Below are positions 5,226-42,175 of a stretch of 44,030 nucleotides of DNA, piece by piece. The DNA lies in contig JAKPFN010000099.1 in NCBI GenBank assembly GCA_029551395.1, positions 1 through 44,030 on the forward strand. Direction: 5' to 3'. The first letter of the stretch is position 1. Every line of letters starts with the position of its first letter. A program made the position numbers and the translations under genes. A model generated the notes under the pieces. It saw only the letters and a program-made list of their open reading frames with translations, was not told the origin of the DNA and made no database searches. Source of the stretch: Armatimonadota bacterium. Its GTDB lineage: Bacteria > Armatimonadota > UBA5829 > DTLH01.

Positions 5226-8200
5226 ATGGCTAACGACTTGATTAAGCACTCGGCTGGCGTGACAGAAAGTGGGATTGACGTGTTCAATCCTGATTTCAAT
5301 CCGAGCTTGGTCCTGTCGCCAAACAGTTACAACCTCATGACCGGCATCAATCGCGGCACGGGACCCAGGTACGGCATGAGCCCGATACCTGGGCATTCTA
5401 ACCTAGACACCACTGACTCAAGCATTGGGCGTGGGATTCGTTCAGCTGAATTGACTACTGGCGACTCGTTTGATGTTTTCTTGAAGAGAAGAAAATTCCT
5501 TGGCGTTCTCCCGGTCACTCTTTTTGAGATCATCGACAGTGTTAGCTCTTTTGCCAATAACGCCCAGAAGTCTGTTCTGTTCTGGCTTATTACGGATTAT
5601 GACGGGGTACAGAATACTCTGACATTTACGCCCAATGCAGGTTTTCAGGATGGATCTTCAAGTTACAACCAATTTATCTACACAGCCCAGAACCGCTATG
5701 GGTTTTATAATCCTATTTGGGCATGGCCAGCAGATAATGGCTCGGAGCCTGCTCGTGTAAATTTCAACAGCCCGCTGTTTCGTAGGATTGGGAACGCCAA
5801 GCCTACATACCCAGCAGCAGTAAGCGCTGCGAACCTTGTTAAGGACGTTTTTAAGTTTAAAGACTCTCTTTATTATTCTTCCAATGCAGTCATTTCTGTT
5901 TCTGGCAGGAAGTGGCCTATGAAATGGCTCATAGGAAGCAAGCTGAGCAATGGGGATTCCACACACTCTGCCATTCCCAACTTTGTGTTTTATTTTTACT
6001 CTGGAACCAATGCATCAACTGCAGGGGTTTGTCCTGCTTTTAACCTTGCGAATTACAAGAAAACCCAAAGGACGATAAGCCTCTATAACCTGTACGCCAA
6101 CCAGTTAGCGGCGCTGTACACATATTCCAACTACAGCGTCGACGAGACGACGTATCCAAAAATATTAAACCAGAACGACACATCCCCCAGCATCGTTTTA
6201 AACACTACAGCCACAAGCCAGACTTTACCAGACACGGGCGGCGCGTATGCCCCGGCAAGCGTTACAAGAGTCTTATTGAATGACAACGAACTAGAATGTG
6301 ACAGCTCTTACAGAATAGCGCTCGTCGCGGCTGGCAAACCATACGCCTACGTCGTTCAGGATTGGGAACGGGATTTATCCACAAGGGTTACCCAGGCCGT
6401 TGATTTGACCAACAGGACGCATGTCCCAAGGGTTGTTAGCACGACAATCGATGGTGGTGGGCCAACGGCGTATAAGGAGCTCAGCTACGAAGCTACTAGC
6501 TGCTTTCAAAGGTGGCCAACCTATGACGGCTCAACAGCTCTGCCAACAAACGCAGGAACCGCACCCACATCGCCTTTGTACCATGTGACTACAGGGGCAG
6601 CTGGTAGTGGGGTATTGCGCTCTAATACGACGTATGAATTTACTTTTTCCTTTTTTGACAAACAGTACGGCATCGAGAGCAACGTAGGCAAACCAGCTAA
6701 ATTTCTTACTGGCACAGAGGACTTTGTTGCCTTGTCTTTAAAGAGAGATCAGAAATTCGCTGGCGTTTATGTGCAGAATGCCATGCCTCTCGATAGCTGT
6801 ATCGTAGATGACAAATATTTCGACGTTACAGACGGAACAAACACATTTCGCAATATGATGGCAAACTTCTTAGAGCTGAGGTTCTACTACCGTCCATATG
6901 GCTCTTTTGAGTGGCTTCCAGCTCTTTACATGGACTTTGCCCAATGGCTTGGCTGGCCTAACTATCGGATCATTTGGTCATGTACTGGCGACATCGCGGC
7001 CCTGCCTGGCGGTCAGCCTGGTGGGTTTATCGACTACAGCCAGCTTCCGCCTGATACCTATGATTGCGTCGTTAACTTTAAAAACAGGGCTTTTTGGCTA
7101 TCAAAGAACAACCTCGTGTTTAGCTTGGCCAATAACCCTTTTGCTTATCCGCTTCGCAACTCCGCCCCCGCCCAAGGTGGGTATCGTGGTGCTATTGTTC
7201 ACACTTACAGGGGGCAATCGAGCCAAGAGTCCAGGATCGTCATATTTGGCGATAAGGAAAACTACATTGGCAAGTTTACTGGCGAGTACATCCAGCAGCC
7301 TGTGCAGGTATCTGCTGACACAGTAGCGTCATATGACCTCGACGGTTCTGACTTCCGTATTGAGGCATGGACATCAGTTACGGCTTTCTCCCATAGGTCG
7401 GCTGTCGTAGCGGACGGGGATCTTTATTGGTGGGGTCCACAGGGTATCTATAAAGATGATGGGGTCAACAATCCCACGAAAGTATCTGGCAACATGGAGC
7501 CGGATATTTTTACTCTTTATGAGAAAACCAAAACTGATGAAATTCATTGCATCTATGATGAGACCACAAAGCACATCATTTGGTTCTATCCCCCTGCCAG
7601 CAATAGCACGATTACGCACTTACTGACTCTTGAGGTATCAACCGGGCAAATATTCCTAGATAGATTAGATTGTAAGGTCGATTGGGCTCAAAGGGTCGAT
7701 ATTAAGGACGTTTTCAAGTCAGGCATTGGCGGCGTGCGCACAATGATCGGCGCTAGAGAAACCGGCTCTAGCACTATTCAACGCGGTTATTATTTTGACC
7801 AGATCAACAGAGCAGGCGACTGGGCACCAAAAAAAGAGCTTCTTGTCAAGTCAGTATCGGCTGGACCCACAACGCTCGAAAGGGTTCTGGCCCTTGACTC
7901 CGGGGTCGATGCCACCAATTTTGCCACAATTGCTATCGGCGACTACATAACTATCCATCAGTTTAAAAATTACACAACGCTGTCGACTGGGGATGAGATG
8001 ATCAGCCTTGTCACAGGTATCGATACAGGCGCCAAAACGCTCACTATCAAGCTACCTGATGACGGCGTGCTTCCTACTGCCTCACTCGCCCAAAGGTTTT
8101 ATTTCCCTATCTGGCACGCAGCTGCAGAAGGCGACGGGCTCAACGGTATCCCGTGGGTATGGGAAACGAAATATTGGATGCCTCAGGGCGTGAACTACCA

Positions 8201-24074: not shown

Positions 24075-24381
24075 CCTCGTCTCGATTCTTTGATACCCTG
24101 TCCTTCCAGCCCTGGGACGTCGAACGCTTGACTTCCAGCTCGTCTCGTTGTTCCCGAGCCTTTTTCTTTACTTCAGGGTTGCCTAGTAAATAGTCCGTCA
24201 GGTTGTCCTTAGCTCGCATGAGAAGCTTAAGCCTGAGCTCGTCAATGTAGTCCATGAGGATCTTGGGATCCTGTGGATAACCGTTGTTAGCTATGTCCTC
24301 GTCCATCTTGTTCATTTCGACAGCAAAGACATTCTGGATATCGTCTAGGGTAATAAAACCAAGGCTAGGGTCGGCTTTCAA
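24049..24381 (-). CDS. Charged helical protein, unknown
   Basis: A 110-residue protein that starts at TTG, eight bases after AAGG. It is helical and highly charged (KKKAREQRDELEVKR). It overlaps the membrane gene upstream by 17 bases, so the pair is probably one operon. It converges with the plus-strand gene at 23880-24074. No family was recognised. Confidence 0.5.
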   Translation of the reverse strand: MKADPSLGFITLDDIQNVFAVEMNKMDEDIANNGYPQDPKILMDYIDELRLKLLMRAKDNLTDYLLGNPEVKKKAREQRDELEVKRSTSQGWKDRVSKNRDEAIREALRG

Positions 24382-24568
24382 GGTTGCGGCCTTTCACTCT
24401 GCAGTAGAGCTCTAAGTAGTCGATGCGCTTTTCGTGGTCATCCACCTTGTATATCGCGACAGCCAGGTTTTCGCTAATACGATTGATATTCACAGCCATC
24501 CAGCCGAGCACGGCGAGCGTCGCAGATAAGAGACCAGGCATAAGCCAATCTAACATGCGTTTTTCCAC
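24365..24568 (-). CDS. Small membrane protein with C-terminal coiled segment
   Basis: A 67-residue protein. I start at the GTG at 24568, ten bases after GGGGGA. The frame can begin at a TTG at 24577, where spacing is too short. Residues of about 7-28 are one membrane helix (LMPGLLSATLAVLGWMAV), then a coiled segment (VDDHEKRIDYLE). This arrangement recalls small phage holin or accessory-lysis proteins. Confidence in that role is low. Confidence 0.45.
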   Translation of the reverse strand: MEKRMLDWLMPGLLSATLAVLGWMAVNINRISENLAVAIYKVDDHEKRIDYLELYCRVKGRNLESRP

Positions 24569-24571
24569 TGC

Positions 24572-24600
24572 TTGCAAATCCCCCAGAATGACTTAACAAT
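24572..24600 (+). promoter_or_regulatory. Candidate sigma70 promoter, leaderless start
   Basis: TTGCAA (24572-24577) and AACAAT (24595-24600) are 17 bases apart. Each matches the consensus at four of six bases. The expected start of RNA falls on or beside the ATG at 24606, which has no SD. Confidence 0.35.
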
Positions 24601-24605
24601 TAGTC

Positions 24606-24797
24606 ATGCTTACATCTAAAGCAGCGGCAAAGACCGAAAAGATCGACGAGAACCGTACTAGGTATTATTACCTAAACAGGGACGATTCTAAAGAGCTGTG
24701 GGACGTCCCAGGCTTTTTCGCCGTAGTAGTCAAAGAGGAGCCAGGGCTGTATGTTATTGATTTGTATAAGCAACCCTTTTTATGGTGGACAATATGA
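24606..24797 (+). CDS. Small protein upstream of papain-like peptidase
   Basis: A 63-residue protein I do not recognise. It is Lys/Glu-rich at the start, then has strands with aromatic residues (TRYYYLNRDDS, PGFFAVVV). No SD is visible before the ATG. The stop sits in an ATGA overlap with the peptidase start, so it may be translated together with it. It could be a chaperone or inhibitor of that peptidase, which is guesswork. Confidence 0.4.
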   Translation: MLTSKAAAKTEKIDENRTRYYYLNRDDSKELWDVPGFFAVVVKEEPGLYVIDLYKQPFLWWTI

Positions 24798-25642
24798 AAA
24801 AGCTTCTCCTTTTACTGTTTGCGCTTTTGTCCTGCAAAGCCGTCGCGGACGATATCGCCCCGAGCGGACCTACCGGCCTAGTTTTTCCAGACAATTGGCA
24901 GTCGATGGCGTCCTGGGACAACACGCAGCCGACCGCAACCCTTCCAGCGAGGTTTAACTGGAACGACTTCATGCGACTGCAGCCGATCCGCAATCAAGGC
25001 TCGTGCGGTTCCTGCTGGGCGTTCTCGGTCACGGCTGTAACAGAGTCGCTACACAGGATCCTGTTTCCCATGCTTTTTCCTATCGTCGACCTAGCCGAGC
25101 AGACACTCGTTAGCACCTGCGAGCGTGGCGGGGATTGTGGCGGTGGATTCTTTGACGCCTTTGACTACATCAAGAACTCAGGGCTGCCAAAAGAAGCTGA
25201 TGATCCGTACAGAGCTCGCAACTCCTCATGCCAATCAGGACTCACACCATTCGCCAAGATTACCGGCTGGTCATATGTAGGCGACGAAAACAGAGGCCCT
25301 ACGATCGAGCAGATCAAGCAAGCAGTCTATGACCATGGGCCTGTTAGCATCGACATCAACGGGAGCCTGTCCAATACTGCCTCGGTCATAAAGTCCTGTG
25401 GCTCAACCATGACAAACCATATGGTCAACGTGGAGGGTTGGGTCGATGATCCAGACTATGCAGACTACGGCGGGGGATATTGGATTATCCGCAACTCCTG
25501 GGGGAAAGACTGGGGAGACCACGGCTATTTTAAGATCGTGTACAAATCTCGTGGTGGCTCTAAATGCAATGGCGCAGGGAGCACAGCAGCCTACGCCATC
25601 ATGAACAACGTACAGAATATCCGCGAATACCTGGGCCTATAG
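24794..25642 (+). CDS. Secreted papain-like cysteine peptidase (C1A)
   Basis: A 282-residue endopeptidase of the papain family. All active-site parts are present: QGSCGSCWAFS (oxyanion Gln68, nucleophile Cys74), LAEQTLVSTC, DCGGG, NHMVNVEGW (His209), and IIRNSWGKDWGDHGYF (Asn234). The first 18 residues (KKLLLLLFALLSCKAVA) form a signal peptide. A Cys in LLSC could even make it a lipoprotein. Only about 30 residues precede the mature domain, so the usual long inhibitory propeptide is missing. I start at 24794 because of the ATGA overlap. A frame start at 24782 adds four residues. C1A peptidases are rare in phages, so a cargo or host-interaction role is likely. Confidence 0.9.
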   Translation: MKKLLLLLFALLSCKAVADDIAPSGPTGLVFPDNWQSMASWDNTQPTATLPARFNWNDFMRLQPIRNQGSCGSCWAFSVTAVTESLHRILFPMLFPIVDLAEQTLVSTCERGGDCGGGFFDAFDYIKNSGLPKEADDPYRARNSSCQSGLTPFAKITGWSYVGDENRGPTIEQIKQAVYDHGPVSIDINGSLSNTASVIKSCGSTMTNHMVNVEGWVDDPDYADYGGGYWIIRNSWGKDWGDHGYFKIVYKSRGGSKCNGAGSTAAYAIMNNVQNIREYLGL

Positions 25643-34155: not shown

Positions 34156-34203
34156 TTTTGTACCTCTGATTGTTCAGAGCTATTATGAATGACTGACGCC
34201 AAA

Positions 34204-34365
34204 CTATCTAGGGTGGCTCTTTAGGTATTTGGTCAAAATCATCCTAATTGACAAAGAAACAGGCAGACCGTTTTCCTTGGCGTACATTCTGAGCTTGCCC
34301 ATGAGCGACTCGGACAGCCTTAAAGATATGATTTTATTGAGATCGTTAGCAATTCTTACGGTCAT
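34204..34365 (-). CDS. Ribbon-helix-helix regulator (53 aa)
   Basis: A 53-residue protein. The order of a short beta-strand (SLRL), helix (SESLMGKLRMYAKENG) and second helix (VSLSIRMILTKYLKS) is that of Arc/MetJ-type DNA-binding proteins. It overlaps the HTH gene upstream by four bases and lies before the fibre gene. It probably binds DNA as a dimer, perhaps controlling the fibre operon or the helicase gene opposite. Confidence 0.6.
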   Translation of the reverse strand: MTVRIANDLNKIISLRLSESLMGKLRMYAKENGLPVSLSIRMILTKYLKSHPR

Positions 34366-34562
34366 TTCTTTCCCCTATAGTATCCACGTTTTCCACCGGC
34401 CTGGCGCACAGGATTAAGCATGCCGTGCATTCTCAAAATCCTAGAGACGCTTTCAGCACTCAACGCAAGGTGCTTTGCAACTTCAATACGAGACCAGCCA
34501 TGCCCAGACAACTCTAAAATTCTTGCCTCTAATAAAACAGCTCGCCCTCGTCTTTTATGCAT
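34362..34562 (-). CDS. HTH transcription regulator
   Basis: A 66-residue protein with a clear helix-turn-helix: IEVAKHLALSAESVSRILRM. The N-terminus is basic (HKRRGRAVLLEAR). I chose ATG 34562 because AAGGTG sits seven bases before. An upstream TTG adds two residues. It is divergently transcribed from the helicase gene with 35 bases between them, so it is well placed to control both directions. Confidence 0.7.
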   Translation of the reverse strand: MHKRRGRAVLLEARILELSGHGWSRIEVAKHLALSAESVSRILRMHGMLNPVRQAGGKRGYYRGKK

Positions 34563-34597
34563 TGCCAAACACCTTACGTTGAGTTACCAACCGTTAC

Positions 34598-36229
34598 ATG
34601 CAATTACGTCACTACCAAGAAAAAGCAATAAATGAAATAAGAAAGTTCTACGCAGCCGGAACTCGCAAAGTGCTTCTGCATCTAGCGACCGGGGGCGGAA
34701 AGACGGCAACGTTTTGCCATATGATCAAGCTCGCCGCAGAAAGAGGCAAAAGGTGCCTAGTTGTCGTTCGTGGCGTCAAGCTTATAGAGCAAGCAAGCGA
34801 CCGTTTAACCAGAGATGGCGTACAGCATGGCGTCATGCAGGGCACTAAATCATATGGGTTGCACTTGCCTGTCGTGGTCTGCTCTATAGACACCGTTTAC
34901 CGCAGAAGAGAACCGATTGAAGCCGATTTTATCGTTATCGATGAAGCGCATCAAACGGGAGGAAAAGGCTACAAATGGTTCATAGATCAGTATCCTAAGG
35001 CATACTTTTTACCAGTTTCGGCAACGCCACACCTTAAGAAGGGAATGCGGCACATTGCTGAGGCAGTCGTTTACCCAATATCCATCCAAAAACTGATTGA
35101 AGAAGGCTACCTTGTCGGGAGCAAAACATATGTGGGACAAGAGCCAGACCTTTCAGGGGTTAAAATCAACTCGACAGGAGACTATGACGAGGACCAGCTA
35201 GCGGGGGTAATGACACAAGCCGCGCTGATCGGCGTGCCTTCCAAAAACTACAAAAAACTGGCCGATAAGAAGAAAGCATTGATCTTCGCGGTAAATATTA
35301 GGCACTCAAAATCACTGGCCGAGCAGTTTATTCAAGATGGTTACGCCGTTGAACATATTGACGCAGATACTCCTATCCCAAAGCGAAACGCCATTTTAAA
35401 TAAACTTAAAACCGGCGAGCTGGACCTTGTGACAAATGTTGGCATTTTGCACACTGGCTTTGACCTGCCTGAGCTTGAATGCATCATCATGGCCAGGCCA
35501 ACACTAAGCTACAACCTGCATATCCAAATGCTCGGGAGAGGCACTAGGCCAGCCCCAGGCAAGACTCACTTTACAGTCATAGACTGCGCAGGGAACACTA
35601 AGCGCCATGGTTTTATCGAGGACGAGGAAGAGTGTGTCATAGATGGTAAAAAACTCAGAAAAAGCTCAACCGTCAACTGCGAATGTCATGATAACCACAA
35701 GACCGACAAAGGGGAGTTTATCCCCGAAAAGCACCCATGCACTCTAATCTACAGCATCGATCAAAAGGAATGCCCGGCGTGTGGTTGCGTCAACCTTCAC
35801 TATGTCCCAAAAACAAACCCATTTGAGGACGCGGATCCTGAAAAGACCAGAAATACTCTAACGGTTGAAGCGGAAATGACTGAATACACAAGAGGTATTG
35901 CTTCCGATACCGAAATGTGGATCAAGAGAGCCCAAAAACAAGGTTACAAAAAAGGCTGGATCTATATGATGTTAAAAACAAAATACGGCGATCAAGCAGC
36001 TAACGAAGTATGGAACAAAAAAGTCAAAAGACTGAAAAAATGGCCGCAACGGGACCAAACCACACAGAGCTCGTCAAGGCTATCGTCTATCAATTTAACA
36101 AGTCAGGTAAATGCTTTGTCTGGGGAAACAACACTGGGGCTCTCAAAGCTGGCTCAGGAAGGTTGGTTCGATTCGGACTTGTCGGCTCACCAGACATCAT
36201 TGGGTTTGATCGACAAGGAAGATTTATAG
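34598..36229 (+). CDS. DEAD/DEAH-box helicase (SF2)
   Basis: A 543-residue helicase or translocase. Motifs are: Q motif region RHYQ, motif I ATGGGKTA (Lys35, Thr36), motif II DEAH (115-118), motif III SATP (141-144), and motif VI region QMLGRGTRP near residue 320. A Cys-rich zinc part lies near residues 365-405 (CECHDNH, HPC, CPACGC). The last 60-70 residues are Ser/Thr-rich and lie in the same bases as the start of the VRR-NUC gene in another frame. No SD is obvious. It is the first gene of the replication block. Confidence 0.9.
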   Translation: MQLRHYQEKAINEIRKFYAAGTRKVLLHLATGGGKTATFCHMIKLAAERGKRCLVVVRGVKLIEQASDRLTRDGVQHGVMQGTKSYGLHLPVVVCSIDTVYRRREPIEADFIVIDEAHQTGGKGYKWFIDQYPKAYFLPVSATPHLKKGMRHIAEAVVYPISIQKLIEEGYLVGSKTYVGQEPDLSGVKINSTGDYDEDQLAGVMTQAALIGVPSKNYKKLADKKKALIFAVNIRHSKSLAEQFIQDGYAVEHIDADTPIPKRNAILNKLKTGELDLVTNVGILHTGFDLPELECIIMARPTLSYNLHIQMLGRGTRPAPGKTHFTVIDCAGNTKRHGFIEDEEECVIDGKKLRKSSTVNCECHDNHKTDKGEFIPEKHPCTLIYSIDQKECPACGCVNLHYVPKTNPFEDADPEKTRNTLTVEAEMTEYTRGIASDTEMWIKRAQKQGYKKGWIYMMLKTKYGDQAANEVWNKKVKRLKKWPQRDQTTQSSSRLSSINLTSQVNALSGETTLGLSKLAQEGWFDSDLSAHQTSLGLIDKEDL

Positions 36230-36366
36230 CCGTTGAGTGCAAAACAGGCACAGGCCGCCTAACGTCTTACCAAAAAGACTGGTGGGATAAAGCAGCAGAG
36301 GCAGGAGTAAATGGTATAGTTGCCAGAGACATCCACCATGCGCTTGACTTCCTAAACTCTCTGTAG
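36040..36366 (+). CDS. VRR-NUC nuclease
   Basis: A 108-residue PD-(D/E)xK nuclease of the VRR-NUC type: GSPDIIGFD, AVECKTGTGR and YQKDW carry the metal-binding Asp/Glu/Lys and Gln. Phage members are structure-specific nucleases that resolve branched DNA. The ATG at 36040 is my choice, though 36010 in the same frame is possible. It overlaps the helicase 3' end by 190 (or 220) bases. It belongs with primase and helicase genes. Confidence 0.85.
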   Translation: MAATGPNHTELVKAIVYQFNKSGKCFVWGNNTGALKAGSGRLVRFGLVGSPDIIGFDRQGRFIAVECKTGTGRLTSYQKDWWDKAAEAGVNGIVARDIHHALDFLNSL

Positions 36367-36379
36367 TCTCTTGTAGTTC

Positions 36380-37138
36380 ATGAAAATATCTTTATCTATC
36401 AACCCGGCTGGCGAAGCCTGGGCGCAACGCCACTTTAAGATACAAGAGATCTCTCTCATAAGAGAGCTCGCCGACTATATGCTATCAGGAGCATGGTCGC
36501 CGATCGTGTGGTCAGAAGGCTACCGTAAGACGGACAATTTTCTGAGCTGTGACTATCTTGCTCTTGATTGTGATGATGGAGCGTGGACAATCGAGAGCGC
36601 TAAGTCGTGGTTAGCAAAGAATGAGCTTAAAGGCATCATCGGCACGACAAAGAGCCATCAGGTAGCCAAGGGCGAAAAGCCTGCCTGTGACAGGTTCCGT
36701 GTAGTAGTCCCATGGGATAGGCCAATTACTGACTACCGGCTTTATCGCGCCAACATGGAAGAGCTGCTGCGCAATATCCCTGCTGATAAGGCTTGTAAAG
36801 ACGGCGCTCGCTTTTTCTATCCGTGCAAGAAGATCGAATACTTTCAAAACGGCAAAGGCTATCCGTGGATTAATATCCCAAAGCCAGTACAACGCCCACC
36901 AAACCCCCAATATGCCGCCAATGGTATCCTGCCTAAGTTCATCCAGGATATGCTTACAAACCCACCAGGAGAAGGTGGGAGAAACACGCATTGCTTTAAG
37001 GTGGCTGCAGCCATGGCTAAGTTCGGATTTAGCGAGCAGGACGCTATTAGTGCGGTTCAATCTATGCGCATGACACTACCGGAAAAAGAGGTGCTTTCCG
37101 CTGCAAAATCTGGTTATAAAACTGGAAGAAAAAGATAA
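36380..37138 (+). CDS. PrimPol-like DNA primase
   Basis: A 252-residue primase of the archaeo-eukaryotic/PrimPol type. The catalytic motifs are LALDCDDG (Asp63, Asp65), KSH (His93), RFRVVVPW (Arg105/107), and the KDGARFFYP element. A helical C-terminus (residues of about 185-245) resembles primase C-terminal accessory domains. It would make primers for the SF3 helicase encoded next. No DNA polymerase gene is seen, so it may recruit the host replicase. Confidence 0.8.
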   Translation: MKISLSINPAGEAWAQRHFKIQEISLIRELADYMLSGAWSPIVWSEGYRKTDNFLSCDYLALDCDDGAWTIESAKSWLAKNELKGIIGTTKSHQVAKGEKPACDRFRVVVPWDRPITDYRLYRANMEELLRNIPADKACKDGARFFYPCKKIEYFQNGKGYPWINIPKPVQRPPNPQYAANGILPKFIQDMLTNPPGEGGRNTHCFKVAAAMAKFGFSEQDAISAVQSMRMTLPEKEVLSAAKSGYKTGRKR

Positions 37139-37145
37139 AAAAGAA

Positions 37146-37165
37146 TCCCGTTCTCGCAAACGGGA
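37146..37165. promoter_or_regulatory. Intercistronic hairpin before SF3 helicase
   Basis: A perfect 7-bp inverted repeat TCCCGTT/AACGGGA with a 6-base loop lies between the primase and SF3 helicase genes. No T-run follows, so it is more likely an mRNA processing or stability element than a terminator. Confidence 0.5.
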
Positions 37166-37194
37166 CCTGGGACAAAACACGCACAGAGGTTTTA

Positions 37195-38643
37195 ATGACA
37201 ACTAATCCCGAAAATGTCAACGAATTTCCTACCATCGAAGAGCTCTCAGAAGAAGAAATAGCAGCCCTCAAAGAAATAGATGAGCCACAAGAAGAAGATC
37301 CTTCTCCCCTTGTTGAACTCACTCGCGAAGAAGTGAAGAAACATCAGAAAAAAGACAAAGAAAAGAACCTCTTAAAGAAAGAGATCTACAATATTATGGT
37401 CAGAGCTCTGACCGGGCAATTTCTGCCGCGAAGCGATTGGCCTGAGCTTGAGACTAAATTCTCAGTAATGCAAAACAGCGACAAGACTGTGCGGTTTGTC
37501 GAAATTGATCAGCGCGGGGTCGTTAAGCTTATTTCTGTCGATGGTGTTAAAAATGCAGCTCTAGGATACCTGAAGAGCAACAAAAAGCATGGGTACATGC
37601 ATCTAAAGAGGAATGACTTAGCGGAGATCGCGAGCCTTCTACAGGCTACTGTCACCCCGATCAAAGAGTCCGACATATCTCCAGTTCTGCAGAAGTCGAC
37701 CAAAGGGCTTTGCTGGCATCGCCTCGAATGGGATCTAGCCGATGGGGAGACACCACTCTTTGATGAGCTCTGCTCAAGAACCAGCAACACAGAATCGTTT
37801 CAGTGTTGGATCGGATCCCTGTTCTTTCCCAAGGCAGACCGGCAAACCTACCTCTGGCTCTATGGTGGTGGGCGCAACGGCAAGGGATCTCTCTGTCGAG
37901 TCCTCGCCAAGATCTTTGGGCCAGGTTACAGCTCTGAGCAGGTACCAACTGCAGCCGAACAGAGATTTTGGAGCATGGGCCTATTAGGCAAGAGGCTGGT
38001 AGCTTTTCCTGATTGCAACCATACGGCCTTTACTAAGAGTGGGCTCATTAAGTCTGTGACTGGTGGTGACAAGATACGTGTCGAGTTTAAGGGCGGGGGG
38101 GTTACGTCAGAAGAGCTTACATGCATGCTCCTGATTCTTTCCAACAACCGCCCCCAGATCAGCAACCAAGAGTCCGATATGCGCCGGGCTATATTCTGTG
38201 AAATAGGCCCGATCACTACAGACTTTGGACAGAACTATGAAGCGGAGCTTTGGGGAGAAGCGCCGTTTTTTGTCCACAAGTGCATCAAGCTGTACAAAGA
38301 GAAGTACCCGACCTTTTCGGCAATCAGGCCAGATCGCGAAGCCAATCACCTACTGGCGAGTCAGGCTGATGCTTATTTTGAAGACATGTTCCAAAAGCAC
38401 TTCAGGCTGGACCCTGATTCCTCGATACCTGCTGAGGAACTCCGTAGGATCTGTCGTGATGAAAAAATGGACGAATTTAAGTCTCGATACTTCTGTATGT
38501 GGATGGAAAACACGCACGGAGTTAAGTACAAACTATTGAGATCTAAGGATAATTGGAAGGTTCGCCGGTATGCCTATACTGGTATCCGTAAAAAAACAAC
38601 ACATGACGATATTTTGGAGCTTGATTTCAGTGATGAGGGTTGA
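37195..38643 (+). CDS. SF3/D5-type replicative helicase
   Basis: A 482-residue helicase of the phage/plasmid P4-D5 type. The N-terminal 60 residues are very acidic then basic. A D5_N-like part precedes the ATPase. Walker A is YGGGRNGKGS (Lys230). Walker B is RLVAFPDCN (Asp273), and motif C is LLILSNNRP (Asn317). The typical primase half is absent and supplied by the gene before. AGAGG stands five bases before the ATG. The candidate origin starts about 40 bases after its stop. It is the helicase most likely to be loaded at that origin. Confidence 0.88.
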   Translation: MTTNPENVNEFPTIEELSEEEIAALKEIDEPQEEDPSPLVELTREEVKKHQKKDKEKNLLKKEIYNIMVRALTGQFLPRSDWPELETKFSVMQNSDKTVRFVEIDQRGVVKLISVDGVKNAALGYLKSNKKHGYMHLKRNDLAEIASLLQATVTPIKESDISPVLQKSTKGLCWHRLEWDLADGETPLFDELCSRTSNTESFQCWIGSLFFPKADRQTYLWLYGGGRNGKGSLCRVLAKIFGPGYSSEQVPTAAEQRFWSMGLLGKRLVAFPDCNHTAFTKSGLIKSVTGGDKIRVEFKGGGVTSEELTCMLLILSNNRPQISNQESDMRRAIFCEIGPITTDFGQNYEAELWGEAPFFVHKCIKLYKEKYPTFSAIRPDREANHLLASQADAYFEDMFQKHFRLDPDSSIPAEELRRICRDEKMDEFKSRYFCMWMENTHGVKYKLLRSKDNWKVRRYAYTGIRKKTTHDDILELDFSDEG

Positions 38644-38681: not shown

Positions 38682-38970
38682 CGTCATAAACGTCATACAG
38701 CGTCATATGAACGTCATACAGCTTCTCGTATGACGTTTTTTTATGCCTAAATCCAGCCGGTTACGACCTGTTTTACCCTGTGGATAACCCGCGTCATGCG
38801 TCATTTTACTTCCTATCCATATCTCTCTCTTTTTTATGTGAGTTATACCTAATGATAGAAAAAAGAGTATGACGCTATGACGTTCCGGATATTACTGACA
38901 AAATCACGTCATACCCTGCAAAAGCGTCATACTGACGTTATGACGTTCTTGTGCAATTTTTGTGCAATTT
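38682..38970. other. Candidate replication origin with iterons
   Basis: A gene-free region (38644-39037) holds twelve copies of CGTCAT or its complement. Plus-strand copies begin at 38682, 38691, 38701, 38712, 38792, 38799, 38907 and 38925. Complement copies begin at 38730, 38869, 38877 and 38940. The first four are 9, 10 and 11 bases apart, close to one helical turn. A perfect DnaA box (TTATCCACA) is on the minus strand at 38779-38787, and 38801-38870 is AT-rich. A tandem 11-mer TTGTGCAATTT lies at 38949-38970. This fits iterons, initiator sites and a melting region beside the helicase gene. The region could also be an operator cluster. Confidence 0.7.
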
Positions 38971-39037: not shown

Positions 39038-40066
39038 ATGAGAATTATCGTGCTATTCCTGGCCATTGTGGCGGCTTGCTTAAAATGCACCCCCACCGGT
39101 GACCATAACCAGCAACTAGAAGAGTCATGGTCACAGACAACAAAGCGAGATACTTCCATGTGGGTCAACCAAGGGGACCTGAGACTATTCGACGTTGTCA
39201 TGGTGGATTCAGGCCCAGACCGTCTAATGTCAAATCTGATAGGCGGGACCGTTCCCCAGGCCTCTGAGTACCCTGCTACCTTCGCCTCGCGTCAGAGTGG
39301 CTCTGGCTGCACGGCAACCCTAATCGCTGAGGACGTCCTCCAATTGGCTGCCCATTGCGTGGGTAACGGCCGCACTGCTCAAATAACAAGCAACGGCCAG
39401 TCATACACAGGCACCTGTACCCATGCCCCTGGCTACCAGGGAGATGCCACGGCTGACTGGGCTCTGTGCAAAATGTCAACAGTCGTCGATAGAACGTGGT
39501 ACGAAAAAGTCCTCCAGGATCCCACCAAGATCGCTGTCGGTGGCAAAGTTACCCTCGCAGGAGCAGGTTGCACCCAGCCTGGCGGTAATGATGGCGCATT
39601 CGGCACGCTAAGAGTCGGGCAAGCCACCATCACTCAAGTACCCACTTCAGACAATGACACCGTCACAAAGGGCGGCGCGGCACTTTGCTTCGGTGATTCT
39701 GGCGGGTCCGCCTTCTACGAAGAAGTCGGCGGGCAAAGGTGGGTCATGGGCGTCAACTCTCGGGGAGATATCCAGTCTACCAGCTATTTAGCTTCCGTGT
39801 TCACAGCTAGTGCGAAAAATTTCTACAAAGCTTGGGCACAGACCAACAATGCTAAAATTTGTGGCATCGATCCGGCTGCTGTGAAATGCCAAGGGAGCAC
39901 AGTCGACCCCACACCTCCATTGCCACCACAATGCAAGGTCGCTCTGGACCTATTCACAAAATGTCTTTACGACATCCCACGGCTTGCTATCGCGCAGCCA
40001 GCCCAATGCCGGAAAGCATATGCTGACCTTTTCGCTTGCGAAGAAGCAGCCGAGCTCGCACAATAG
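39038..40066 (+). CDS. Secreted trypsin-fold serine peptidase, lipoprotein
   Basis: A 342-residue peptidase of family S1. The catalytic triad is intact: AAHCV (His106), DWALCKM (Asp140) and GDSGGSAF (Ser221). The mature domain begins near LIGGTVPQASEYP, as in activated chymotrypsin-like enzymes. The N-terminus (IIVLFLAIVAACLKC) is a lipoprotein signal with lipobox VAAC. The residue six before Ser221, where trypsin has Asp, is Ala, so Lys/Arg specificity is not expected. A Cys-containing helical tail (residues of about 295-342) follows a TPPLPP linker. It has its own promoter and terminator, typical of a cargo gene. Confidence 0.9.
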   Translation: MRIIVLFLAIVAACLKCTPTGDHNQQLEESWSQTTKRDTSMWVNQGDLRLFDVVMVDSGPDRLMSNLIGGTVPQASEYPATFASRQSGSGCTATLIAEDVLQLAAHCVGNGRTAQITSNGQSYTGTCTHAPGYQGDATADWALCKMSTVVDRTWYEKVLQDPTKIAVGGKVTLAGAGCTQPGGNDGAFGTLRVGQATITQVPTSDNDTVTKGGAALCFGDSGGSAFYEEVGGQRWVMGVNSRGDIQSTSYLASVFTASAKNFYKAWAQTNNAKICGIDPAAVKCQGSTVDPTPPLPPQCKVALDLFTKCLYDIPRLAIAQPAQCRKAYADLFACEEAAELAQ

Positions 40067-40105
40067 CTCTGTACTGCACGCCACTCCTACGCACTGCATC
40101 CTTGG

Positions 40106-40137
40106 ACCGTCCATTCTTATGGGCGGTTCTTTTTTTG
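40106..40137 (+). terminator. Intrinsic terminator after serine peptidase
   Basis: A 9-bp stem (ACCGTCCAT/ATGGGCGGT, one G-T pair) with loop TCTT is followed by TCTTTTTTT. It lies 39 bases after the peptidase stop, so the peptidase is a single-gene unit. Confidence 0.88.
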
Positions 40138-40182
40138 GCCCAACCGTGAGATAATAAATTAACCGCACACAAGGAGAGTAAT

Positions 40183-40425
40183 ATGCCAATTATATTGCTT
40201 ATTTTGCAGATCGTCTCGGCGATCCCGTCCATCATCAGCACGATCAAAGCCATCATGGACATCATCCATGGCCTCAAAGGCGACGCCAAAAAAGAGGCTA
40301 CTTCGCAATTGCGTGAAATTTTAAAGAAGCACACTGCTAAGAATAAGCCGGTGGCTGCGGGGGCTGCTCAAGCCGAGCTTGCTGACTTCTTGTCTGACCT
40401 CAGAGACAAGCATGGCATCGTCTAG
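40183..40425 (+). CDS. Small membrane-active protein
   Basis: An 80-residue protein. Residues 2-30 (PIILLILQIVSAIPSIISTI) are hydrophobic and helical, and the rest is Lys/Ala-rich. AAGGAGAG precedes the ATG, and GATAAT (40150-40155) may be a -10 element. It has the style of the 23101-23316 product: short, one amphipathic or membrane helix. A holin-like or capsid-accessory role is possible, with no family match. Confidence 0.55.
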   Translation: MPIILLILQIVSAIPSIISTIKAIMDIIHGLKGDAKKEATSQLREILKKHTAKNKPVAAGAAQAELADFLSDLRDKHGIV

Positions 40426-40868
40426 GCACCTGGCTTTTTAAGATCCCAAGCGCCCGGTTGATCCCACAGGTCAAGCTGTATCGTGGCGCTTGCTGCCTTT
40501 TGCCTCGACTCAGGGTTGCTGCCAAGGCTGAGCTTTAAGATATCCATGCCAATCTTGGCTAGGGTTTGCGCGGCGACCAGGTCGGCATTGTTGTACTTTG
40601 TCATTTCGTCCTCCATGCGAGGACCATCATCTGAGATCTCTTTGAGCTTTCTAATCCCCTTGATCAATGTAGCCTCGGCCAGGCGCTTTAACTCATAAGA
40701 TATTTCAGCAGGCTTTTGGATATTGTTCGAAATGTACTGTAGGAGCTCGTCCTCAGGGATTCCACAGGCCTTGGCAGCCTCACGAATTGGCACACCTGCA
40801 CGAATTTTTCTCGTCAGCCCTTCATAATCGCGATTTGGTTCAGGTAAGCTTTCGATAGTGGACCTCAA
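40422..40868 (-). CDS. Possible small terminase or HTH protein
   Basis: A 148-residue protein with an N-terminal helix-turn-helix (GVPIREAAKACGIPEDELLQ). A helical middle (SYELKRLAEATLIKGIRKLK) and LAKIGMDILKLSLG follow. This resembles small terminase subunits, which bind the packaging site through an HTH and form rings with the helical part. It starts at TTG 40868 without an SD. It is opposite in strand to both terL and the capsid gene (ATG 23 bases away), which is unusual. It could also be a regulator of the capsid operon. Confidence 0.45.
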   Translation of the reverse strand: MRSTIESLPEPNRDYEGLTRKIRAGVPIREAAKACGIPEDELLQYISNNIQKPAEISYELKRLAEATLIKGIRKLKEISDDGPRMEDEMTKYNNADLVAAQTLAKIGMDILKLSLGSNPESRQKAASATIQLDLWDQPGAWDLKKPGA

Positions 40869-40891
40869 ACTAAATCAAGAGGATTAAAAAT

Positions 40892-42175
40892 ATGTCAGGA
40901 GCTACCTTTAGCGATGTTGACAGCTACGGCCTTCTAAAGGAGCTGTACGCTGACGATGTTCAATTCCAAGAGCACATTCTCTCGTCATTCTATAACTTTC
41001 TACGGAAAGCCTCCAAAGGGGAAGTAGAATTTGACGGCAAGTATTGGAACCAAGGCGTTGTGTTCCAACTCAACGAAAGCTACGGAGCTAAAAACGACTC
41101 CGAGCGTTTGCCTGATTCTGACTTCCAAAAAGGCGTTTTCGCGAAATATCGCCCGAAACTCATGTACTCAAGCATCGAGATGACGACCTTCGCGGCAACC
41201 CGTGGACACAAAAACGGGCGCCCCAACGGCAAGTACCTCGAAGACACGATCAAGGGCACCTTGCTCTCTTTCATGTCCAACCTCGACTCCGATGCACTCG
41301 GCAACGGTCGCGGTTACCGCGCAACGATCTTGACTGCAACTCCTGCAGCAACCTCTTTCACCGTTGACTACTCGACGCGCCTTCGTCCTGGCATGAAGCT
41401 GGACTGGTACGACTCGACCTTGGCAACCAAACGCGGCTCGATCAAGATCGCGCTTCGTGGCGTTGACCGCATGAACAAAACGGTTTACATCGACACGACT
41501 TTTGGCACAGGCGCAGTCCCGGCTGGCGCAGTGGCAGACGACGTCCTCGTTGTTTACGGCGCTCTCGCAGCTGGCGAGCCTTCTGACGGTCGTCATATGG
41601 GCGGTTACGCTCGTATCGTCGACAACACGCTTTCTTTGGGCTCTTTGGCCAGCTCGACCTACGCAGCTTGGGCAGCAACCAACATCAACGCAGGTTTGGC
41701 TAACCCCAACCAAGAGATCCTTCAGCAACACTGGGATGCTATGGGCATCATCTCTGGCGTAGATCCTAACCGCATGGCTTTCAACCAAGCCTGGAAACGT
41801 GGATACCTCAACGGTTTCCTCAACCAACGCCGGTTTACGTCTAACAACTTCGACACTGGCGCATCCAGCCTCAGCTGGTCACCTGTGAAAATGGGCAAAG
41901 ACGACAGCGGCAAAAAAGTCTCTGGCATCGAGATGCTCGAAGACAAAAACATGGACCCCACCGCAGTCTATATCTGGAACCATGACGCGCTGTGCATCGC
42001 CACGGACTACGGCGATCAACCGCACTTGGCAGACGAAGACGGCTCTGAATTCCGCTTCCGTCGTAACTACGACTCCATGAACGGATTCTTCCGCTTCTGG
42101 GCAAACGTTGTTGTTAAACAACGAAACGCGGTCGGACAGATCTACAACTTCACACCTGCATCAGGCGTAATCTAA
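40892..42175 (+). CDS. Major capsid protein
   Basis: A 427-residue protein with the pattern of HK97-fold coat proteins: an N-terminal helix (YGLLKELYADDVQFQEHILS), GKYWNQGVVFQLNESYG with the spine-like NLDSDALGNGRG region after, a beta-rich middle, and C-terminal strands (GFFRFWANVVVKQRNAVG). Codon use is more uniform than in neighbours (frequent GGC, GCA and TTC), as expected for an abundant protein. AGAGG precedes the ATG and an intrinsic hairpin follows the stop. No protease is adjacent. The family is inferred, not aligned. Confidence 0.75.
   Translation: MSGATFSDVDSYGLLKELYADDVQFQEHILSSFYNFLRKASKGEVEFDGKYWNQGVVFQLNESYGAKNDSERLPDSDFQKGVFAKYRPKLMYSSIEMTTFAATRGHKNGRPNGKYLEDTIKGTLLSFMSNLDSDALGNGRGYRATILTATPAATSFTVDYSTRLRPGMKLDWYDSTLATKRGSIKIALRGVDRMNKTVYIDTTFGTGAVPAGAVADDVLVVYGALAAGEPSDGRHMGGYARIVDNTLSLGSLASSTYAAWAATNINAGLANPNQEILQQHWDAMGIISGVDPNRMAFNQAWKRGYLNGFLNQRRFTSNNFDTGASSLSWSPVKMGKDDSGKKVSGIEMLEDKNMDPTAVYIWNHDALCIATDYGDQPHLADEDGSEFRFRRNYDSMNGFFRFWANVVVKQRNAVGQIYNFTPASGVI

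Follow-up and report, generated by a model that had tools for sequence, protein, structure and literature searches.

A two-sided repeat array beside an SF3 helicase gene as the probable replication origin of a tailed phage

The window analysed here, a stretch of 44,030 bp, comes from a bacterial draft genome, of which it forms a single contig (G000:C154). It carries the genes of a tailed phage: a terminase and a major head protein were recognised with PHROGs profiles and the portal protein is 47% identical to an annotated one. In a gene-free gap of 394 bp, directly after a helicase gene, the short word CGTCAT is repeated many times. What is this array for? Its anatomy and its neighbourhood suggest that positions 38682-38945 very probably correspond to a phage replication origin, at which the SF3 helicase encoded just before it would act. 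Confidence in this reading as an origin is high. The putative origin would be one of the Sfi21/P4/PICI kind, and ordinary in kind. The replication genes and the elements of the array are as follows.

34598-36229, + strand: SF2 (ResIII/DEAD) helicase (Pfam ResIII, 4.9e-23; phrog_16 DNA helicase, 4.7e-87)
36010-36366, + strand: VRR-NUC nuclease (Pfam VRR_NUC, 1e-6; similar proteins in the relatives L013-L015)
36380-37138, + strand: primase-like gene with a PriCT_1 C-terminal region (phrog_2135 DNA primase, 1.9e-11)
37195-38643, + strand: SF3-type helicase, proposed initiator that would bind the iterons (Pfam DUF5906, 2.1e-12)
38682-38804, + strand: left iteron set, seven CGTCAT (++++-++), consensus (A/G)CGTCATA, from the motif count
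38709-38738, + strand: inverted iteron pair, a terminator-like hairpin with an 11 bp stem followed by a T run, from RNA folding
38779-38787, - strand: perfect match to the DnaA box TTATCCACA, of doubtful relevance, with two further perfect matches in the window
38803-38862, no strand: AT-rich core between the iteron sets, the richest 60 bp of the region (73% AT against 49% for the window)
38869-38945, no strand: right iteron set, five CGTCAT (--++-), from the motif count
38949-38970, + strand: perfect tandem 11-mer TTGTGCAATTT, seen in the sequence

All replication genes are carried by the + strand, as are the genes on both sides of the array. The SF2 helicase is 26% identical, over most of its length, to the orf443 helicase of Sfi21 (E 5e-45). 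The primase-like protein matches PriCT_1 just under the Pfam cut-off (6.1e-4) and shares 34% identity with the primase of phage MW202458 (see below). The product of 37195-38643 is a helicase of the SF3/D5 type. It matches D5-family DNA primase PHROGs (phrog_1156 DNA primase, 2.9e-21) as well as the DNA primase of PDB entry 7ola (1.1e-4), and its core resembles the putative primase of Sfi21 (E 5e-8). A preliminary description of this DNA had noted a primase and a helicase but no polymerase; indeed no DNA polymerase was recognised among the scanned window proteins, a scan that did not exhaust the small and unmatched ones. The gene that follows the array (39038-40066) encodes a trypsin-like peptidase (Pfam Trypsin, 2.4e-13) with an apparent secretion signal. 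A papain-like peptidase, judged from sequence only, is encoded at 24782-25642 and also carries an apparent secretion signal. Two such peptidases are an unusual phage cargo.

The array covers 264 bp. It starts 38 bp past the stop codon of the SF3 gene, abuts the start of the protease gene and is located 1.9 kb before the major capsid gene. Its 12 exact CGTCAT/ATGACG sites, ten of which extend to the 7-mer CGTCATA, form two sets flanking the AT-rich region. These sites, the start-to-start spacings of 9, 10 and 11 between the first four of them, the perfect DnaA box on the minus strand, the AT-rich stretch, the tandem 11-mer and the position directly after the helicase gene had all been pointed out in the preliminary description and were found again here. 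The gap is however not the only long gene-free region, as had been stated, since three others are longer (24075-24605, 531 bp; 40426-40891, 466 bp; 34156-34597, 442 bp). The proposal that the repeats occupy one face of the helix holds only loosely: with a helical turn of 10.5 bp, the first four are spread over about 70 degrees, and the spacings of the later ones vary.

CGTCAT is a mildly common word in this phage (57 sites in the whole window against 18.4 expected). Nevertheless, at the density found elsewhere in the window, only 0.41 sites would be expected in the array region, against the 12 observed. In 100 simulated second-order Markov genomes, in which the densest k-mer of any kind was scored per 300 bp, the densest 6-mer reached a mean of 4.7 copies and a maximum of 7, and the densest 7-mer a maximum of 4, against 12 and 10 respectively in the array. 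The hexamer count called for in the preliminary description thus sets the array apart from chance. Just one other pair of CGTCATA was found in the draft genome of origin outside the array, which is therefore not a host chromosomal motif, and a literature search on the word returned no relevant use. GC skew, also put forward as an origin mark, did not behave as one: it passes from +0.03 (34598-38643) to -0.08 (39038-42175), a sign opposite to that usual for a bidirectional origin. The hairpin formed by two facing iterons at 38709-38738 (-17.3 kcal/mol, z -4.8), followed by its T run, probably also terminates the transcript of the helicase operon. A single sub-threshold Rfam match at this hairpin (E 0.096) was judged to be due to chance.

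Relatives of the phage were found by a search with a capsid alignment. A search of viral contigs with the helicase alone and a search with a single portal sequence retrieved none, and the capsid alignment had no match in genome contigs. The closest annotated phage is MW202458 (ctKpZ937, Manatee Spring), a circular record of 42,151 bp, with 62.5% identity to the window for the capsid, 50% for the terminase and 47% for the portal. It carries 11 copies of GTARCAGC (also given as GGTAACAGCA) around an AT-rich centre, those to the left all on the + strand and those to the right all on the - strand; elsewhere the record has a single copy. As in the window, its array is found in a gene-free stretch, with the SF3 gene on one side and the capsid gene on the other. 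However, the word is different, the two sets are perfectly inverted and the array precedes the helicase gene instead of following it.

Three IMG/VR relatives, L013, L014 and L015 (capsid identity 52-53%), carry a DUF3987 primase-helicase where the window has its SF3 gene, with an array directly at its 3' end. L013 includes seven CGCAAYCAA with a period of 9, - to the left and + to the right; L014 includes ten TGGCGAC with a period of about 11; L015, statistically the weakest, has four GTGGCAC among nine GTGGC. A perfect 16-bp inverted repeat (GGGTCTAAAACGTATA ... TATACGTTTTAGACCC) occurs within the iteron region of L014 (3130-3175). Since these three phages use another helicase family, keep the layout with a changed word and have arrays that lie 7-8 kb away from the capsid gene, the array goes with the replication gene and not with the capsid gene. 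Enterococcus phage 4995_2, which was found by helicase similarity and shares its family with Streptococcus phage Sfi21, has seven GGTAGAYAGT on either side of a core of 90% AT, in the stretch that directly follows its primase-helicase gene, and none elsewhere in the locus. No array was observed in the L010, L012 and L016 records, but these are fragments without an SF3 match and are thus uninformative. Streptomyces phages Doxi13 and Kardashian, of distant primase/polymerase similarity, showed no comparable array in the stretch examined.

The same anatomy is known from systems with an annotated or described origin. In the Sfi21 record, the 302 bp of non-coding DNA that follow the 'putative primase' (SF3) gene are annotated as 'origin of replication, phage inhibitory sequence' and contain 11 GTAAC on both sides of a 93% AT core. 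This region (the PER element) is reported to act as an independent origin that infection activates (PMC6356513). The window shares with Sfi21 the module order SF2 helicase - primase - SF3 - ori and the short repeats on either side of an AT-rich core directly 3' of an SF3-type gene. It also includes a Sipho_Gp157 gene, a family linked with the Sfi21 element (PMC6356513). The two differ in their word (GTAAC against CGTCATA), in their capsids, which are unrelated, and in their primases, which show no detectable similarity by BLASTP. Moreover, the Sfi21 origin was tested experimentally, that of the window being a candidate predicted from sequence. The orientation of the sites in the window is less tidy than in MW202458 or L013, but it is mixed in Sfi21 too.

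In the P4 record, crr is annotated immediately 3' of the SF3 primase-helicase gene alpha, from which a terminator separates it. Its ten type 1 repeats, each of 8 bp, occur in both orientations, and the arrangement is like that of the window. Unlike the window, P4 has two cis regions, ori and crr, that are far from each other, a fused primase-helicase, another repeat (TGTTCACC) and a crr spacer which is not AT-rich (52%). In PICI, the origin is found just 3' of rep, and two iteron sets with an AT-rich region between them are always present (PMC6092414). The position 3' of the rep helicase, the two sets with their AT region and the separate primase and helicase genes of PICI/SaPI (PMC6092414, PMC7581432) are all found in the window, and the anatomy of Sfi21, 4995_2 and the window phage is the same as that of the PICI/SaPI rep-ori. 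However, PICI and SaPI are satellites, elements without a full set of virion genes, whereas the phage of the window is a tailed phage of full size that encodes a capsid, a portal and a terminase of its own.

Which protein would bind the repeats? In SaPI Rep and in SCCmec Cch2, a D5-type helicase, it is the C-terminal domain that binds the iterons, which lie a short way downstream of the gene (PMC7581432). The preliminary description had named the helicase as a possible binder, and it is this candidate, acting through its C-terminal part, that published C-terminal binding in the same protein class favours (PMC7581432, PMC4234260). No Pfam family matched the C-terminal region of the window SF3 helicase and its structure model (pLDDT 35) was unusable, so that the iteron-binding domain is a putative one. 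A winged-helix-type signal is present at the C-terminus of the L014 helicase and a Pox_D5 signal at that of the Sfi21 and L030 helicases. MW202458 encodes, on the minus strand at 37242-37535 and 38095-38448, two stand-alone small proteins which resemble the C-terminal part of its own SF3 helicase (about 30% and 67% identity). Possibly they compete for the iterons or act as regulators at the origin.

For the window origin we infer the following course of events. The C-terminal domain of the SF3 helicase would bind CGTCATA in both sets, giving hexamers on either side of the AT-rich core. The core would then melt, allowing the helicase to load and unwind. The phage primase (36380-37138) would lay down primers, which a host polymerase would extend.

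The alternative that survives best assigns a part to the host: DnaA would bind TTATCCACA and be needed to open the AT region, while a phage protein would bind the iterons. DnaA boxes are typical of several plasmid origins and the array does include a perfect one. However, further perfect copies occur in the window at 6375 and 24272, and no TTWTNCACA was found in the arrays of MW202458, L013, L014, L015 and 4995_2. The box was for these reasons dropped as origin evidence. The second copy (24272-24280) lies in the longest gene-poor gap (24075-24605, 531 bp), where no repeat array was seen. DnaA-dependent iteron plasmid origins are recognised by a conserved DnaA box and a plasmid-type Rep gene beside the iterons; here the box is not conserved and the neighbouring gene encodes an SF3 helicase. 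Moreover, in SF3 systems such as P4 alpha the initiator itself both binds the origin and unwinds it (PMC4234260). Dependence on DnaA is thus improbable. From the iteron-plus-DnaA origin of the preliminary description, the iteron half is well supported, by comparative anatomy and two annotated controls, and the DnaA half is not supported. The better analogy is SaPI/P4/Sfi21 and not the DnaA-plus-iteron plasmids.

Repeat arrays bound by RHH proteins exist, and a small phage repressor of the HTH or RHH type might use the repeats as operators controlling the helicase operon or the protease gene, next to whose start they lie; MW202458 encodes an Arc-like protein. This reading is very unlikely, because the repeats track the primase-helicase gene across phages whose neighbours are otherwise different and promoter-like sites do not exceed chance level. 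It is possible, on the other hand, that the same repeats serve as both origin and operator. Even less credit can be given to a partition site (centromere) of a phage-plasmid. Short intergenic repeats on a phage contig within a bacterial draft genome would suit it, but no ParA/ParB-like protein was found among the scanned window proteins, the neighbours of the array being the SF3 helicase and the trypsin-like protease, and none was seen beside the arrays of the relatives. Finally, a packaging start (pac/cos) or recombination site, suggested by the 1.9 kb that separate the array from the major capsid gene, can hardly be entertained given that the L013-L015 arrays adjoin the primase-helicase gene 7-8 kb from the capsid gene.

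The word CGTCATA is not confined to this phage. A triple CGTCATA pattern matched 38 viral stretches, 21 of which hold a bidirectional array (at least five copies, at least two per orientation, within 450 bp); the reversed word, used as a control, matched 45 stretches, none with such an array. The word had been chosen beforehand from the window, but the thresholds of five copies and two per orientation were set after seeing the matches and the contrast of 21 to 0 is therefore descriptive. The matches comprise two groups of related sequences, with 12 and 5 members, besides several singletons. Such arrays were seen in phages and mobile elements that are not related, directly following a replication gene in the first four of these examples:

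L030, 10902-11156: after a D5_N primase-helicase gene
L064, 10660-10925: after a VapE-like helicase gene
L077, 1035-1247: on a Mycobacterium shimoidei contig, after a primase/helicase fragment
L146, 1747-1810: after an AAA_25 (DnaB-like) gene
L063, 2431-2662: array
L052, 8055-8360: array

The link with a helicase is not general, since the genes neighbouring the arrays of the two larger groups are of unknown function. The two bases preceding CGTCATA are AA or AG in the window, AA in L064 and L063, TC or CC in L030 and L077, and TT or AT in L052 and L146. A short C-terminal stretch, YKKxMYGRxY, is shared by L030 and L064 and is a lead only. Close capsid relatives of the window phage use quite different words. 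The recurrence of CGTCATA may be due to common ancestry of a binding domain, to convergence or to a host factor that the elements have in common. A tentative idea, which we consider rather doubtful, is that CGTCATA is a portable origin word on which unrelated elements with different helicases have independently settled, or which they have exchanged, the 2-bp prefix giving specificity. If so, origin specificity would be an exchangeable module, and it could decide between which phages and satellites there is competition for initiators, or titration of one another's.

The array places a testable candidate origin in a poorly known phage group. The layout of two iteron sets around an AT core, beside a helicase gene, is that of satellites and is found in ordinary tailed phages as well, which contradicts a published claim that the layout is unique to them among known bacterial replicons. 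With a constant layout and a word that varies from one relative to the next, these phages provide matched helicase/iteron pairs for studies of DNA recognition by SF3 helicases. A host might be protected by a plasmid with the array that titrates the initiator, as in the case of Sfi21.
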